Origin: Spiribacter salinus M19-40
GTDB taxonomy: Bacteria > Pseudomonadota > Gammaproteobacteria > Nitrococcales > Nitrococcaceae
Direction: 5' to 3'
Length of the DNA stretch: 64,000 nucleotides
NCBI RefSeq assembly: GCF_000319575.2
Contig: NC_021291.1
Coordinates: 62,001-126,000, forward strand
In this document: one piece after another, positions 166 through 62,564 of the stretch
Layout of the letters: every line of letters starts with the position of its first letter
Numbering within the stretch: the first letter of the stretch is position 1
Program-made: the position numbers and the translations under genes
Notes under the pieces: generated by a model
What the model was told of the DNA's origin: nothing
Database searches by the model: none
What the model saw: only the letters and a program-made list of their open reading frames with translations

Positions 166-1292
166 CCGCCTGTCCGATTGTCAGTTCTCATGTATCGACC
201 ACCGTGGCAGGGCTTTACGAGGCCCTTCAGTTCTAGGCTCAGGAGCATGGAGGAAAGGATATCGGGCGTCAACGCGAGTTGCTCGGCGAGCCAGTCAAAG
301 CGCACCGGATCGTATCCCATGCGCGCCAGAACCGCGTGATAGTCCGCATCGAGGGGGTCTTCTGACGTGTCTGGTGCCGGCTTGGTGGCGGTGGGGTTGA
401 GCGGTCCGGTCAGACCCCGAAGTTCTTCGATCACATCCTCGGCGGTTTCCACCAATCGCGCGCCTTCCCGGATGAGCCGATGGCAGCCGCGAGCCACCGG
501 GTTGTGAATCGACCCCGGGATGGCCATGACCTCACGATTGTGTTCCAGGGCGGTGTGAGCGGTATTCATCGCGCCGCTCTTGGCACTGGCTTCCACAACG
601 AGCACACCGAGCGCCAGGCCGCTGATCAGGCGGTTACGTCGTGGGAACAGGCCGCGTTTGACGGGCGTGCCCGTCGCCATTTCGGTGATCAGCGCGCCGT
701 TATCGACAATCTCCCGGGCCAGCGCCTCGTGCTCACGCGGATAGAGCCGATCCGGGCCGGTGGCCATCACCCCGATCGTTTGCCCGCCCGCTGCCAATGC
801 ACCTTGATGCGCCTCGGCATCAATCCCCAGGGCAAGGCCACTGGTGATCACCAGCCCGGCGGCCGCCAGATGCGCGGAGAAGTCGGCGGCGCTGTGCAGG
901 CCGCCGGGCGTGGCATGACGTGAACCGACGATACCCAACTGAGGTGCGCTCAGGCACGCCAGATCGCCCCGCACAAACAGCACGGGGGGCGGGTCGGGAA
1001 TGGCGCGCAGCGCGTCCGGGTAGCGCGGGTCTGTCTGGGTGAGCAAGTAGCGGTTGTCCTCGGCGTCCAGCCAGCGCAGATCGGCGTCCACGCCTGAGTT
1101 GAGGCGATGCGCATCGCTGGCGGCCTGGACGACTTTGGGAGGTATGCCGTGGTGGCGACGATCGGCCTGGCTTGCCGCCAGAAAGGCGCTGGGCGTTTCG
1201 TAGGCGTCGAGTATCTGGCGATAAACCCCGGGCCCGACGCCCTCCAGTCGCCAGACGGTCAGCCAGTCACGCAAGGCGGCCTCAGTCATCAT
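162..1292 (-). CDS. dprA: DNA-processing protein DprA (Smf), ssDNA/RecA loader
   Basis: DprA binds incoming single-stranded DNA during natural transformation and loads RecA. The protein shows the DprA Rossmann-like core: GIVGSRHAT, then SGLALGIDAEAHQGAL, then a G-x-NPRR-like FPRRNRLISGLA stretch with VVEAS. A helix-rich N-terminal segment precedes it and a winged-helix-like segment follows at the C-terminus. At 376 residues it matches the family length. The start is placed at the tandem ATG ATG (1292/1289), because upstream codons fall inside the preceding gene, whose end it overlaps by 11 bases. Its own stop overlaps the smg start. This order (LysM gene, dprA, smg) is common in gammaproteobacteria. 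Confidence 0.93.
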   Translation of the reverse strand: MMTEAALRDWLTVWRLEGVGPGVYRQILDAYETPSAFLAASQADRRHHGIPPKVVQAASDAHRLNSGVDADLRWLDAEDNRYLLTQTDPRYPDALRAIPDPPPVLFVRGDLACLSAPQLGIVGSRHATPGGLHSAADFSAHLAAAGLVITSGLALGIDAEAHQGALAAGGQTIGVMATGPDRLYPREHEALAREIVDNGALITEMATGTPVKRGLFPRRNRLISGLALGVLVVEASAKSGAMNTAHTALEHNREVMAIPGSIHNPVARGCHRLIREGARLVETAEDVIEELRGLTGPLNPTATKPAPDTSEDPLDADYHAVLARMGYDPVRFDWLAEQLALTPDILSSMLLSLELKGLVKPCHGGRYMRTDNRTGG

Positions 1293-1689
1293 GCGGATGG
1301 TCTGCTCCTGTGTCGGCCACCAGGTAGTCCCCCGGGCGGATCTCCCGGTCGGCGCGTTGGATACGGAGTATGGCCGGGCGCCGGGTTTCAATCACAACGG
1401 CCTCGCCGAGCACCCGGGCCGTTTGGCTGGCGGCGGTGGGATCGGGTCGCAGGACATGATAACGCCGGGCATCCCGACCCTCGAGGCCATCGGCCAGAAA
1501 GGTATCACCGGGGCCCAGCAGCACGCGGTTGTCGGTGCCACCGAGCACGCGCGGCAGTGTCGACTGGCTGGAAAAGTGCACCACCGCGCCAAGCTCGGCG
1601 GCCGGGCTGGGCGGTGTTAGCCAAGCCAGCAGCAGGCACAGCCCGACCGCGCTCAGGGTGGATGGTCGGCGGCGGTCGCGTCGGGTCAT
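1282..1689 (-). CDS. Exported protein related to the C-terminal part of dprA-adjacent LysM proteins
   Basis: This is a 135-residue protein with an Arg-rich N-terminus and a hydrophobic segment (SAVGLCLLLAWL) ending near AAE, read as a Sec signal peptide, so it probably acts in the periplasm. The mature part (PRVLGGTDNRVLLGPGDTF, later REIRPGDYLV) resembles the C-terminal region of the LysM proteins normally encoded here. No LysM domain is present and the protein is much shorter than the usual 300 or more residues. The start at 1689 is chosen for a strong AGGAGGTG ribosome site; a longer reading to 1794 would run across the promoter region of def. Function is unknown. Confidence 0.7.
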   Translation of the reverse strand: MTRRDRRRPSTLSAVGLCLLLAWLTPPSPAAELGAVVHFSSQSTLPRVLGGTDNRVLLGPGDTFLADGLEGRDARRYHVLRPDPTAASQTARVLGEAVVIETRRPAILRIQRADREIRPGDYLVADTGADHPHDD

Positions 1690-1803
1690 GGCACCTCCTG
1701 GGCTTTCATTGACTGACTGGCCGGTGATTACCGGCATTCGGTATAATTCAGGGACGAAAGACGTTAATTGAGGTCGCAAGCCGCGACCCAGCACGGAAGT
1801 ACC
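1690..1803. promoter_or_regulatory. Divergent promoter region of def and the dprA operon
   Basis: These 114 bases separate two divergent operons. A perfect TATAAT lies at 1742-1747 on the plus strand, 57 bases before the def ATG. A TTGACT at 1709-1714 is too far upstream (27-base spacer) to be its -35 element, so the -35 is not resolved. The match to the -10 is seen; promoter activity is inferred. Confidence 0.4.
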
Positions 1804-2337
1804 ATGGCAAAGCGCGACATTCTTCAGTATCCCGACCCGCGGCTACGAACCCCCGCTCGGGCGGTTGAGGTGATCGACGCGCGGATTCACACCTTGATCG
1901 AGGACATGTTCGAGACCATGTACGACGCACCCGGCATTGGCCTGGCGGCGACGCAGATCGATGTGCATGAACAGGTCGTGGTGATGGACCTCAGCGAATC
2001 CGGCGATGAACCCCTGGTTCTGATTAACCCGGAAGTGGTGGAGCGCGACACGCAGTGTGACATCGCCGAGGAGGGGTGTCTGTCGATCGCGGGCTACCTG
2101 GACAACGTCGAGCGACCGGAGCGCGTTACGGTTCGCGCCCTCAATCGCGACGGCGAGGCCTTCGAGCTTGAGGCCGAAGGGCTGCTGGCGCGGTGTATCC
2201 AGCACGAACTCGATCATCTGGAAGGGCGGCTGTTCATCGACCATCTCTCCGATCTGAAACGCAAACGGCTGCGGCGGCGGTTTGAAAAGGCGGCGCGTCA
2301 ACGCGGTGATGGCAGCCTGAAAACGGGCGCGGTCTGA
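1804..2337 (+). CDS. def: Peptide deformylase
   Basis: It removes the N-formyl group from nascent polypeptides and is a cytoplasmic Fe2+/Zn2+ metalloenzyme. All three family motifs are present in order: [15 protein letters not shown] (metal-ligand Cys) and QHELDHLEG (HEXXH-type, with two His ligands and the catalytic Glu/Asp pattern). Length is 177 residues, typical of type 1 enzymes. The ATG at 1804 is preceded by GGAAG, while the upstream in-frame ATG would add an unconserved N-terminus. It heads the run def-fmt-rsmB and lies 20 bases before fmt, its functional partner. Confidence 0.97.
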
Positions 2338-2357
2338 GCCCGCCCGAGGCCGCCTCC

Positions 2358-3299
2358 GTGCTGCGCGTGGCCTTTGCCGGCACGCCCGATTTCGCGGTGC
2401 CGGCGCTGCAGGCGCTGCTTGACGGGCCCCATGACGTGGTGGCGGTCTACACCCAGCCAGACCGCCCGGCAGGCCGAGGGCGACGCCTGCGACCCTCGCC
2501 GGTCAAAGCCTTGGCGCTGGCCCATGACCTGTCGGTCGAACAACCGCAGCGCCTGCGCACGGACGAGGCCGTCGAGCGCCTGCGGACTTATGCCCCGGAT
2601 GTCCTGATCGTGGCGGCCTACGGCCTGATTCTGCCCACGACCATCCTGGACGTGCCGCGGTTGGGCGCACTCAACGTCCATGCCTCGTTGCTGCCCCGCT
2701 GGCGGGGTGCCGCACCCATCCAGCGCGCCATTGAGGCGGGCGACACCGAGTCGGGCGTCTGCCTGATGGAAATGGCGCCGGGGCTGGACACCGGTCCGGT
2801 GGTCGCGCACGCGGCAACGCCACTAAGCGATACCGAAACCGGGGGTAGCCTGCATGATCGTCTTGCCGACCTTGGCGGCGCTCTGCTGGCGGCGAAGCTG
2901 GATGACTGGGCGGCCGGGCGGCTGCCGGCTGTGCCCCAGCCCGAGGCGGGTGTCACCTACGCCGCGAAGCTGACGTCGGACGAGGCCTGGATTGACTGGC
3001 GCGCATCGGCTGAACAGTTGGCGCGCCGAATTCGGGCGTTCAACCCCTGGCCGATCGCACGCTGTGGCTGGGCAGGCGATGCCCTGCGGATCCGGTTCGC
3101 CCGGCCTACCCCGGCGATGACCACGGCCGAGAGCGTCACACCGGGGACGGTGGTGGCGGCTGGCGATGAAGGCCTGGATGTCATGACCGGCGAGGGCTGC
3201 TTGCGCTTGACCGAGGTTCAGGCACCGGGGGGGCGGGCGCAGCCAGTGGCCGATTTTTTGCGGGGGCACGCGATCCATGTCGGCGACACCCTCACCTGA
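2358..3299 (+). CDS. fmt: Methionyl-tRNA formyltransferase
   Basis: It formylates initiator Met-tRNA using 10-formyl-THF. The N-terminal Rossmann-type domain starts [12 protein letters not shown], the formyl-THF site has [15 protein letters not shown] (catalytic Asn/His/Asp context) and [10 protein letters not shown], and a C-terminal OB-like domain follows from about residue 205. At 313 residues it is normal length. Translation starts at a GTG. Its last 23 bases overlap rsmB, so the two are probably coupled. Together with def this covers formylation and deformylation. Confidence 0.97.
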
Positions 3300-56736: not shown

Positions 56737-57927
56737 GTGGCGCGACAGACTCCGCCACCGCCCCCGCAGCCGGATGCTGCCGCGCAAGAACATAGCCGGC
56801 AGCTGCGTGAGCGGATTGATGCGGCCATTGCCATGGCGGGCGGCACCCTCGATTTTGCCGAGTACATGGCACTTGCGCTGTATGCCCCAGGGCTGGGTTA
56901 TTACAGCGCGGGCCAGCAGCGCTTCGGCGCCGAGGGCGACTTCACCACCGCGCCGCTGATGAGCGATCTATTCGCGCGCACCCTCGCCCGCGAGGTCGAG
57001 CGCATTAACGTCGCGTGTGGGGGCGACACGGTACTGGAATTCGGCGCGGGCACGGGGCAGATGGCCGCTGATATCCTGGCCGAGCTCGAGGCACGCCACG
57101 CCTTGCCCGAGCGGTATTTGATTCTGGAAGTGAGCGCTGATTTGCGGGCCCAGCAGGCCGAGACCTTGCAGTCGCGTGTGCCCGCGCTCGCCGATCGGGT
57201 GAGTTGGCTGGATCGGTTGCCGTCGACCCCGATTCGTGGCGTGATCCTGGCCAATGAGGTGATGGATGCCCTGCCGGTGCAGCGCTTTCACCGGGCAGAA
57301 ACCGGGGTTGAAGCCCTGGGCGTGGGTCATGATGAGGCTGGTGCGCTGTGTTGGCGGACCATGCCGGCCGACTCGGCGCTCGCCGAGGCGGTGGCGGCGA
57401 TCGAGTCCGAGATCGGCGATACGCTGCCCTCAGGCTATGCCTCCGAGTGGTGCCCAGGCCTCGCGCCGTGGGTCAATGCGCTCTCGGCGCTGATTGAGGC
57501 GGGCGCGGCGTTGCTGATCGACTATGGCTATCCACGGCGGGAGTATTATCATGCGCAGCGGCAGACCGGCACACTGCTGTGTCACTACCGCCATCGGGCG
57601 CATGATGATCCGTTTTACTGGCCGGGGCTGCAGGACATCACCGCCTCGGTCGATTTCACGCTGGCCGCCCGGGCGGGCCAGCAAGCCGGGCTCGAGGTGT
57701 TGGGGTTTACCACGCAGGGGAACTTCCTGACCGGTGCCGGGCTGCCACAGCTACTGGAAGAAACCGCGGCTGGCGATCCCAATCGGGCCGCCGAGCTCGC
57801 TCAGCAGGCCAAGCCGTTGCTGTTTCCCGATGAAATGGGGGAGCGCTTCAAGGTGCTGGCGCTGGGACGTGCGCTTGACGAACCGCTCGCGGGTTTTTCC
57901 TTTACCGATCATCGGCAAAGGTTGTAA
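56737..57927 (+). CDS. SAM-dependent methyltransferase, MidA/NDUFAF7 family
   Basis: 396 residues starting at GTG one base after folK. It has a Pro-rich start, then FAEYMALALYAPGLGYY, FTTAPLMSDLFARTLA, the SAM motif LEFGAGTGQMA (100-110), and ANEVMDALPVQRF. Eukaryotic relatives methylate an Arg of a complex I subunit (NDUFS2); bacterial substrates are mostly unproven. Complex I genes are not in the window, but an NDUFA9-like gene lies 2.8 kb away. Confidence 0.9.
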   Translation: MARQTPPPPPQPDAAAQEHSRQLRERIDAAIAMAGGTLDFAEYMALALYAPGLGYYSAGQQRFGAEGDFTTAPLMSDLFARTLAREVERINVACGGDTVLEFGAGTGQMAADILAELEARHALPERYLILEVSADLRAQQAETLQSRVPALADRVSWLDRLPSTPIRGVILANEVMDALPVQRFHRAETGVEALGVGHDEAGALCWRTMPADSALAEAVAAIESEIGDTLPSGYASEWCPGLAPWVNALSALIEAGAALLIDYGYPRREYYHAQRQTGTLLCHYRHRAHDDPFYWPGLQDITASVDFTLAARAGQQAGLEVLGFTTQGNFLTGAGLPQLLEETAAGDPNRAAELAQQAKPLLFPDEMGERFKVLALGRALDEPLAGFSFTDHRQRL

Positions 57928-57993: not shown

Positions 57994-58650
57994 ATGGCGA
58001 CCTGGGGGCCGGAAACCTGGTTTTATCGATACCTTGCCGCACCAATCCGCGAGGTGCTGGAAGATGGTGGTGGGGGTGAGCAGCGACTCAAAGCTCGCCG
58101 TTACAATGACTTATGTGTGTTGTTTACCGATATTCGCGGATTTACTGCACTCTCTCAAACGATCGATCCAGATCTGCTCAGTCGCACGGTCGGCATCCAC
58201 GCCCGCTATCAGTCGCAGTCGGTGGAGCGGTTTGGCGGTTATGTCGATAGTTTCTTCGGTGATGGCTTGATGGCCATTTTTGAGGGCGACGGTATGGAGG
58301 CAAGAGCCTGTCAGTGCGCCCTCGAGGTGATGGAGCAGTCTCACCGTCCACCGGAAAGCGCGGATGTCCGGGCGGTTCCGATCGGCATCGGGATCCATTC
58401 CGGGTCGGTGGTCCGCGGGAGCTTCGGGAGCGAGCACTGGCAGACCTACACCACCATTGGCGCGGCAGTGAACATTGCTGCCCGGCTGTGTGATCACGCC
58501 GCCGGCACCGAGATCGTGATCAGCGACACGGTTCGTCAGGCACTGCCGTGGCCAGAACGTGACGGGGCCATTCTTTTTGACCCGGTAACGGGTGAGCCAC
58601 CACGCGATGTGGATCCTGGCCTCCCGCTCTACCGGATTCGGCGAGGCTGA
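57994..58650 (+). CDS. Class III nucleotidyl cyclase, atypical substrate residues
   Basis: 218 residues comprising essentially a single catalytic domain. Metal-binding Asp residues are Asp46 (LFTDIRGFT) and Asp90 (FFGDG). Transition-state residues Asn160 and Arg164 (AAVNIAARL) are present. The two positions that normally choose adenine are changed: Ser86 replaces the usual Lys (VDKFxGD) and Ala157 replaces the usual Asp (IGD). There is no sensor or membrane domain. AAGGAAG precedes the ATG; its stop shares bases with the uppP start (TGATG). Confidence 0.85.
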   Translation: MATWGPETWFYRYLAAPIREVLEDGGGGEQRLKARRYNDLCVLFTDIRGFTALSQTIDPDLLSRTVGIHARYQSQSVERFGGYVDSFFGDGLMAIFEGDGMEARACQCALEVMEQSHRPPESADVRAVPIGIGIHSGSVVRGSFGSEHWQTYTTIGAAVNIAARLCDHAAGTEIVISDTVRQALPWPERDGAILFDPVTGEPPRDVDPGLPLYRIRRG

Positions 58651-59462
58651 TGGACAGCGCCCAGGCATTCTGGCTGGGGCTGATTCAGGGGATCACCGAA
58701 TTCCTGCCGATCTCGAGCTCCGCGCATCTCATTCTGCTTCCTCAGCTGCTCGGCTGGCCTGATCAGGGGCTGGCTTTCGATGTCGCCGTCCATGTCGGGA
58801 CACTGCTGGCGGTGGTGTGGCACTTCCGTCGCCAGCTGCTGCCGCTGGCGAGCCAAACGCTGGCGTCCGCCTCGCGCCGCGAGGCGGTGGGTGAGAGCGG
58901 GCTGGGCTGGGCGTTGATCATTGGCACCATGCCATTGGTGCTGGGGGCGCTGGTCTTGGCGGATGCCGCGGAAACCGTCTTTCGGGGCCCGCAGGTCATC
59001 GCCTGGGCCACCATCGGGTTCGGCCTGCTGCTGTGGCTGGCCGCGCGGCGGGGCAATCGGGGTAAGGATGAGTTCGATATCGGCCCCTGGCAGGCGCTCT
59101 TTATTGGTTCGGCCCAGGTGCTCGCGATCATTCCGGGTACCTCACGCTCGGGGATCACCATGACGGCGGGTTTGTGGCTGGGCCTGGAGGCCACAGCCGC
59201 CGCGCGATTCTCCTTCCTGCTCTCCATTCCCGCGATCGCGTTGGCGGGCATCTGGAAGACCTGGCAGCTCATGAGTACACCGGCACCCGTTGACTGGGGT
59301 GTATTTGCGCTGGGTGTGGTGGTGGCGGGGGCGTCGGCCTACACCTGCATTCGGGTGTTTCTGGCGCTTGTCGCGCGCATCGGCATGACGCCGTTTGTGG
59401 TCTATCGCCTGGCGCTGGGCGTGGCGTTATTGATCGTGTTCGGCCCGGGCCTGGCCGACTGA
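58650..59462 (+). CDS. uppP: Undecaprenyl-diphosphatase UppP (BacA)
   Basis: Recycles the C55 lipid carrier for peptidoglycan. 270 residues, about eight membrane helices, with the two active-site motifs GITEFLPISSSAHLIL and IIPGTSRSGITMTAGLWLG. It is translationally coupled to the cyclase gene upstream and converges with cca (1 base). Confidence 0.96.
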   Translation: MDSAQAFWLGLIQGITEFLPISSSAHLILLPQLLGWPDQGLAFDVAVHVGTLLAVVWHFRRQLLPLASQTLASASRREAVGESGLGWALIIGTMPLVLGALVLADAAETVFRGPQVIAWATIGFGLLLWLAARRGNRGKDEFDIGPWQALFIGSAQVLAIIPGTSRSGITMTAGLWLGLEATAAARFSFLLSIPAIALAGIWKTWQLMSTPAPVDWGVFALGVVVAGASAYTCIRVFLALVARIGMTPFVVYRLALGVALLIVFGPGLAD

Positions 59463-61775: not shown

Positions 61776-62564
61776 TTGTTTGATCTGCTGATTTATCTCG
61801 TCGCCGGCGTGGCCGTGGGCCTGGGCTCTGGCCTGTTCGGTATTGGCGGCGGGCTGATCGTGGTGCCCGTGCTGTTGCCGGTGTTTGCGGCTCAGGGGCT
61901 GGGGACGGATGTCGCCATGCACGTTGCGGTGGCAAGTTCGCTGGCGACCATCGTGGTGACAACGGCATCGTCGGCCCGCGCGCATTGGAAGCTGGGGAAT
62001 ATCGTCGGCCGTGCCTTGCCCTGGCTGATTAGCGGGCTCGTTGTCGGCTCATTCGCGGGCGCACAGATTGCGGCAGCCGTACCGGGTCGCGCGCTGCAGA
62101 TCATCTTCGGTGCGTTTGTCATATTACTTGCGGTGCGGATGGCGCTGGTGGGTCAGGTGCCGCCCGGGCGCGTCATGCCCCCTCCGCCAGTGGTCACGGG
62201 CGTGGGTGGAGTGATCGGGACCATCGCCGGCATGGTCGGCATTGGCGGTGGCGCATTGATCGTGCCGTTTCTGGCCTGGACCGGGGTGGAGATGCGTAAA
62301 GCCGTGGGCACCTCGGCGGCCAGCAATGTCTGCGTGGCCATCGCCGGTACGCTTGGCTTTATCGTGGCAGGGGTCGGTGAGGCAGGATTACCTGATTGGA
62401 GCACGGGGTATATCTACTGGCCCGCTGTGGGTGGGATCACGCTCGCGAGCGTTTTTACCGCGCCGCTTGGGGCAAAACTCGCTTCGCGGCTGCCGGCGCA
62501 GGTGCTGCGCCGGGCCTTTGCCGCGTTCCTGGTGGTCGTTGGGCTGAAGATGCTCGTCGGTTGA
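61776..62564 (+). CDS. TSUP (TauE/SafE) family membrane permease
   Basis: About 262 residues with eight hydrophobic segments in two repeats, each with a Gly-rich motif: GLFGIGGGLIVVPVL and GMVGIGGGALIVPFL. The family exports or imports sulfite, sulfoacetate or other small organosulfur/organic anions; substrate unknown. The start is placed at TTG 61776 (GGAGG 4 bases upstream, typical short N-terminus). An ATG at 61689 would precede a CATAAT -10-like site at 61737 and add a polar leader. Confidence 0.85.
   Translation: MFDLLIYLVAGVAVGLGSGLFGIGGGLIVVPVLLPVFAAQGLGTDVAMHVAVASSLATIVVTTASSARAHWKLGNIVGRALPWLISGLVVGSFAGAQIAAAVPGRALQIIFGAFVILLAVRMALVGQVPPGRVMPPPPVVTGVGGVIGTIAGMVGIGGGALIVPFLAWTGVEMRKAVGTSAASNVCVAIAGTLGFIVAGVGEAGLPDWSTGYIYWPAVGGITLASVFTAPLGAKLASRLPAQVLRRAFAAFLVVVGLKMLVG

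Follow-up and report, generated by a model that had tools for sequence, protein, structure and literature searches.

A stand-alone class III nucleotide cyclase of Spiribacter salinus with an altered base pocket

The cyclase gene and its neighbourhood

The window, a 64,000-nucleotide stretch of DNA analysed here as a whole, comes from the genome of Spiribacter salinus M19-40, which is 1.74 Mb long and assembled as a single contig. It contains an open reading frame of 218 codons with an ATG start at 57994 and a TGA stop at 58648-58650 (Table 1). PF00211 is the sole Pfam domain of the encoded protein (residues 33-185, E 9.8e-16), and its score, against a curated cut-off of 21.9 bits, places the protein among class III nucleotide cyclases. 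The N-terminal receiver that defines response-regulator cyclases does not appear in the Pfam scan, in agreement with a preliminary description of this DNA, which had presented the protein as a stand-alone cyclase lacking a recognised sensor domain.

An AlphaFold2 model of the cyclase was built from a 42-row alignment that drew on 41 of the 80 relatives' loci described below, and reached a pTM of 0.89. The best Foldseek entries for the model are the Synechocystis guanylyl cyclase Cya2 (2w01), which occupies the top row, OaPAC and CyaC; Cya2 is also the best match by sequence in phmmer. In VIA-align, Z scores are 24.5 for CaRhGC (6sir), 24.4 for CyaB, 24.1 for CyaC (1wc5), 24.0 for OaPAC (8qfg), 23.9 for Ma1120 and 23.6 for mycobacterial Rv1900c (1ybu, 1ybt), values at which adenylyl and guanylyl cyclases tie. 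The adenylyl cyclases CyaC and OaPAC thus share the fold of the window protein but have a second domain that it lacks; Rv1900c, also of the same fold, carries a hydrolase domain.

The stop codon of the cyclase gene overlaps the start codon of uppP by one base, which is the TGATG fusion that had been reported. The gene block around the cyclase is conserved as a whole in the genus and the family. Apart from uppP, its genes carry labels that we assume rather than derive, namely tsaD-plsY-folB-folK-midA-cyc-uppP-cca-epimerase, the immediate upstream neighbour being presumably midA. The cyclase gene lies directly before uppP in 11 of the 14 Spiribacter genomes and in five of the seven other cyclase-bearing genomes of the family. 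However, in three Spiribacter genomes (G005, G006 and G007) uppP has a different location, and the cyclase has stayed where it was. Since the whole block is conserved, adjacency of the two genes says little about function, and a functional pairing between them is unsupported. The link between a nucleotide signal and cell-wall synthesis that had been suggested from this adjacency finds no support; it looks like a shared neighbourhood only. In another family genome (G022), uppP is on a different contig, and in G019 the gene was not found. The uppP of G006 (G006:C1:1145956-1146774, minus strand) is a distant copy with 38% identity at another locus, which suggests that the native gene was replaced. 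A scan of the window for CRP-type operator sites with up to two mismatches yielded 9 matches, compared with 17.2 expected, and those nearest to the cyclase gene are at 62426 and 46200.

Table 1. Coordinates of the cyclase gene, its key codons, its neighbours and the CRP orthologue (window positions unless a contig is named; outside rows are aligned relatives from beyond Spiribacter)
Feature	Position	Strand	Evidence
Upstream neighbour	56737..57927	+	tblastn match beside the cyclase in 20/20 fetched family loci
Stand-alone class III nucleotide cyclase, 218 aa	57994..58650	+	PF00211, 58.3 bits; AlphaFold pLDDT 92.0 (mean)
Asp46, first metal ligand	58129..58131	+	14/14 genus and 82/82 outside rows
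Ser86, position of the base-reading Lys (place of CaAC K497)	58249..58251	+	Lys in 81/82 outside rows
Asp90, second metal ligand	58261..58263	+	14/14 genus and 82/82 outside rows
Thr151 (place of CaAC 564, R577 minus 13)	58444..58446	+	Asp or Glu in 81/82 outside rows
Thr153, true second base-reading position	58450..58452	+	Thr or Ser in 82/82 outside rows
Ala157, named in the preliminary description	58462..58464	+	A, E, N, P, S, D or Q in 82 outside rows
Asn160 to Arg164 (catalytic Asn and Arg)	58471..58485	+	both invariant, 14/14 genus and 82/82 outside rows
uppP, undecaprenyl-diphosphate phosphatase, 1-base overlap with the cyclase gene	58650..59462	+	NF001393, 346 bits (cut-off 284)
CRP orthologue	G000:C1:360262-361044 (L073 260-1045 including stop)	-	274.2 bits (equivalog cut-off 266)

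Catalytic residues and the base pocket

The cyclase was compared with its relatives in an alignment of 101 rows. Its locus rows, trimmed to at most 330 residues beforehand, are the best 80 of at least 560 confirmed loci. Five of them (L092, L093, L094, L096 and L097) were judged to be copies of G009, G012, G003, G016 and G019, respectively, and were excluded from the counts, giving 14 rows from Spiribacter and 82 from outside the genus; the near-copies L106, L107 and L113 were retained. The two metal-binding aspartates and the catalytic asparagine and arginine that characterise class III are present in every Spiribacter row and every outside row, bearing out the earlier view that the catalytic apparatus is intact. 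Retention of Asn160 sets the protein apart from Rv1900c, in which a histidine stands in place of the catalytic asparagine (PMC4886424, excerpts).

The usual teaching is that class III cyclases select their base by a code of Lys with Asp (or Thr) versus Glu with Cys. In CaAC, the base is read by K497, four residues before the metal-binding D501, and by D566, seven residues before N573 and eleven before R577; adenylyl cyclases generally use Lys plus either Asp or Thr for this task (PMC5967339, excerpts). In Ma1120, K101 and D157 read the base, and position 164 corresponds to the catalytic asparagine (PMC4215837, excerpts). When the spacing of CaAC and Ma1120 is applied to the window cyclase, the base readers fall on Ser86 and Thr153. 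The lysine of canonical adenylyl cyclases is therefore missing from the first position, which within the genus is Asn in 12 members, Ser only in the window's own cyclase and Tyr in one. The second position has one of the residues expected of adenylyl cyclases, Thr being present in 13 of the 14 members (Gly in G006), as it also is at the corresponding place of OaPAC. Thus only one of the two base readers has been exchanged, and the residue at the second is a usual one among adenylyl cyclases. The preliminary description had considered both base-selecting residues to be replaced, by Ser86 and Ala157, and had proposed alignment with characterised cyclases as a check. Position 86 passes this check, while the second residue turns out to be Thr153, four residues before Ala157. 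In the model, Thr153 is within strand 149-155, and Ala157 starts helix 157-168. The spacing to Arg164 and a column that varies among seven residues in the outside rows rule out Ala157 as a base reader.

The pocket is nonetheless unusual, for a reason other than the one first given: the altered positions are 86 and 151. We examined the 29 columns that are at least 90% conserved in the 82 outside rows (the best 80 of at least 560 loci among them), skipping columns in which fewer than 70 of these rows are filled. Only 86 and 151 are replaced in all 14 Spiribacter members, in both cases by neutral residues; 25 of the other 27 columns are kept in at least 11 members, and the remaining two, 166 and 205, in seven. 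The test is post hoc, with position 86 named beforehand in the preliminary description and position 151 found by the test itself. Outside the genus, position 151 is Asp in 75 of 82 rows and Asp or Glu in 81, whereas in the genus it is Thr (9), Ile (2), Ser (2) or Val (1). According to the phmmer alignments, residues 86 and 151 are Lys and Asp in OaPAC and Glu and Lys in Cya2, that is, of opposite charge in either order, and this swap is why we read the two positions as a pair. We infer that they act together, probably in contact, and that they were neutralised together in the genus, where the window cyclase has Ser and Thr. Two outside rows depart from the rule, each with one side changed: G014 has Gly/Asp and L170 has Lys/Ala. 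Thr occupies position 88 in nine of the 14 Spiribacter rows and in none of the 82 outside rows; the window's cyclase has Phe88.

The leading place of Cya2 in both the phmmer and Foldseek searches might be taken to indicate a guanylyl cyclase. However, Cya2 has Glu, Lys and Gly at positions 86, 151 and 153, against Ser, Thr and Thr in the window cyclase; the Glu expected at position 86 of a guanylyl cyclase occurs in none of the 14 members, and the VIA-align scores tie the two activities. A guanylyl cyclase is accordingly very unlikely.

Among the 369 genomes searched with class-wide patterns, in which the window's genome is the sole representative of the genus, Asn or Ser at position 86 was matched once, by the window's own cyclase, and the Lys pattern in 17 genomes; both patterns demand D-x-F-x-G-D-G-x-M and therefore miss many cyclases. 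The sampled cyclases form a natural series at positions 86 and 151, from the Lys/Asp relatives through Gly/Asp, Asn/Thr and Ser/Thr to Tyr/Ile, on which one could gauge what part of the code an enzyme requires.

Descent from receiver-cyclases and selection

Each of the 14 Spiribacter genomes, nine of which are at least 90% complete, has one cyclase match with no stop inside it. Seven of the nine other genomes of the family also have one match each, with 39-47% identity over the match and longer open frames of 369-439 codons. These cyclases, from Nitrococcus mobilis and other genera, lie in the same gene block, have the same catalytic residues and carry Thr or Ser at position 153. A receiver domain (Response_reg, PF00072) was recognised in three of the four relatives scanned, L016, L017 (Nitrococcus mobilis) and L021, all of which have Lys86 and Asp151, whereas the Spiribacter cyclases have neither the receiver nor the charged pair. 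In a quick tree computed without bootstrap and with columns 86 and 151 removed, the 14 Spiribacter cyclases form one group (SH-aLRT 99). Because longer receiver-cyclases occupy the same conserved locus in other genera of the family, the Spiribacter cyclase would be their orthologue, descended from a response regulator whose receiver was lost in the lineage leading to Spiribacter. The pair at 86 and 151 would have been replaced in the same lineage, with the metal site, Thr153 (in 13 of 14 members) and the catalytic Asn and Arg retained through the change. Receiver loss fits the very scarce regulation described for Spiribacter genomes, which have only two two-component systems (PMC3832224, excerpts). 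A search covering part of the literature returned no work on a Spiribacter adenylate cyclase.

In the fourth relative scanned, L022 of G014 (1387-2706, minus strand), position 86 is Gly, and the N-terminal region gave no receiver match. In this lineage, which has a long branch and an unsure placement in the tree, a second joint loss of Lys86 and the receiver may have occurred. By eye, the receiver of L016 (G021, 844-2145, plus strand) seems to carry Ser where the phospho-acceptor Asp would stand, and its cyclase has kept Lys86.

Loss of the receiver could also have relaxed the constraint on the enzyme, leaving a degenerating protein with little remaining activity. The cyclase is the least conserved gene of the block in every Spiribacter locus, with 40-53% identity to the window gene compared with 52-83% for the matched neighbours; besides the replacement of 86 and 151 in all members, positions 166 and 205 are changed in half of them (7/14). 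Four close pairs within the genus gave cyclase dN/dS values of 0.058, 0.211, 0.113 and 0.056. The second of these, from G002 and G010, is the highest of the seven genes compared in that pair and is consistent with decay. However, the values of the other three pairs are within or below the range of the neighbours, the catalytic residues are invariant, no member has a stop inside the match and Asn86 is kept in 12 of 14. We thus regard decay as unlikely. The 14 uninterrupted frames and the dN/dS values of 0.06-0.21 mean that the cyclase is not a chance open reading frame, and the gene is evolving fast, yet under constraint. Fourteen genomes therefore appear to have kept a selected single-copy cyclase in which the lysine and a nearby acidic residue are nevertheless replaced.

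CRP and the probable product

No class I cyclase was found in any of the 23 family genomes; the search of the 14 Spiribacter genomes among them did match its E. coli control. One class III cyclase is present in 21 of the 23, and in the 14 Spiribacter genomes no class I or III cyclase other than the one described here was found. The window's genome encodes five cNMP-binding proteins, among them one Fnr and one CRP orthologue, the latter being the only equivalog match of the five and exceeding the NCBIfam cut-off (Table 1). The CRP-like receptor proposed as a further check is thus present in the same genome. CRP was detected in 13 of the 14 Spiribacter genomes, the miss being G007, which is 74% complete; ten genomes have a CRP above the equivalog cut-off, and the other three of the 13 CRPs lie just under it. 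With no other class I or III cyclase found alongside CRP, the product of this enzyme would reveal what signal CRP receives. CRP by itself does not prove cAMP synthesis in the family, since G015 (94% complete) encodes a CRP orthologue of 337.5 bits and no class I or III cyclase was found in it.

The explanation that we favour, as probable but well short of certain, is that the protein is a minimal, sensor-less class III cyclase, derived from a receiver-cyclase, which most likely converts ATP to cAMP for CRP. Its base preference is uncertain. Loss of the lysine may change the substrate, given that Lys86 is present in 81 of the 82 sampled relatives and that in the K101E mutant of Ma1120 adenylyl cyclase activity at pH 7.5 falls by 92% and guanylyl cyclase activity is gained (PMC4215837, excerpts). 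However, the double mutant K101E/D157T still prefers ATP, with kcat/Km of 3.16 against 0.23 for GTP in the units of the paper (PMC4215837, excerpts), and a pocket without Lys and with Thr can thus make cAMP. In the proposed scheme, the enzyme is probably a homodimer in which Thr153 would read N6 and Asn or Ser at position 86, being uncharged, would donate more weakly to N1. Rv1900c, with Asn at the place of the lysine, is reportedly active. The cAMP produced would feed the CRP orthologue, and in an enzyme with no sensor the output would be set by expression, substrate or a partner. The domain, the conserved residues, the receiver missing in comparison with family members, the failure to find a second class I or III cyclase and the CRP orthologue are observations; ATP as the main substrate, the dimer, the coupling to CRP and the mode of control are all parts that we infer.

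A different reading of the same replacements is a re-tuning of the base pocket to other or broader nucleotides (pyrimidine, inosine or mixed), with CRP following through Asn128. The pyrimidine cyclases EaPycC and BcPycC are likewise class III enzymes with a changed lysine position. Re-tuning would account for 86 and 151 being the only two of the 29 conserved columns replaced in all members, for the retention of Asn86 in 12 of them and for Thr88 (9/14 against 0/82), at a position that we map to Q144 of EaPycC by counting from the metal Asp (residue numbers from PMC11224242, excerpts). On the receptor side, S128 of CRP reads adenine, and PycTIR, with Asn at that place, reads uracil (PMC11224242, excerpts). 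We compared CRPs from 20 of the 23 family genomes, G007, G019 and G020 having yielded no full-length CRP. Position 128 is Asn in eight of 13 Spiribacter members, including that of the window's genome, and Ser in five, compared with Ser in all seven from other genera. E72, R82, S83, R123 and T127 (numbered, as we assume, after the E. coli protein) are kept in all 20 CRPs, 13 from the genus and seven from other genera, and the constancy of T127 in the 13 speaks against a new signal. Moreover, within the genus the choice of Ser or Asn at position 128 shows no correspondence with the residues of the cyclase, and together with the CRP of G015, present without either class of cyclase, this leaves Asn128 as a lead only. 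Positions 86 and 88 are Ser and Phe in the window's own cyclase and Arg and Gln in EaPycC, and the base-reading residues of EaPycC and BcPycC differ from those of the window cyclase (PMC11224242, excerpts). Re-tuning is therefore unlikely, if worth keeping in mind. Its bolder form, in which a chromosomal, non-defence cyclase and CRP would have shifted jointly to a cyclic-nucleotide signal that is new or mixed, for instance a pyrimidine one, is a long shot; if true, a housekeeping CRP pathway would be run by something besides cAMP alone.

PADLOC models of PycC match the cyclase with up to 87 bits, which would suggest the cyclase of a Pycsar anti-phage system. The same PycC model, however, scores higher (97.4 bits) on a receiver-cyclase of the family with Lys, Asp and Thr in the pocket. 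EaPycC and BcPycC work with PycTM or PycTIR effectors, and none of the seven neighbouring proteins (UppP and six others) matches any PADLOC model. The locus is, moreover, common to the genus and the family. Pycsar identity is disfavoured, as the PycC models also match relatives that carry the lysine, and we hold it to be highly improbable.

Two further proteins with a cNMP-binding domain, of 641 and 634 aa, are encoded at L074 756-2681 and L077 838-2742, both on the plus strand. Neither has an NCBIfam match at E 1e-10, and we take them to be cNMP-binding/CBS/nucleotidyltransferase proteins from their appearance.
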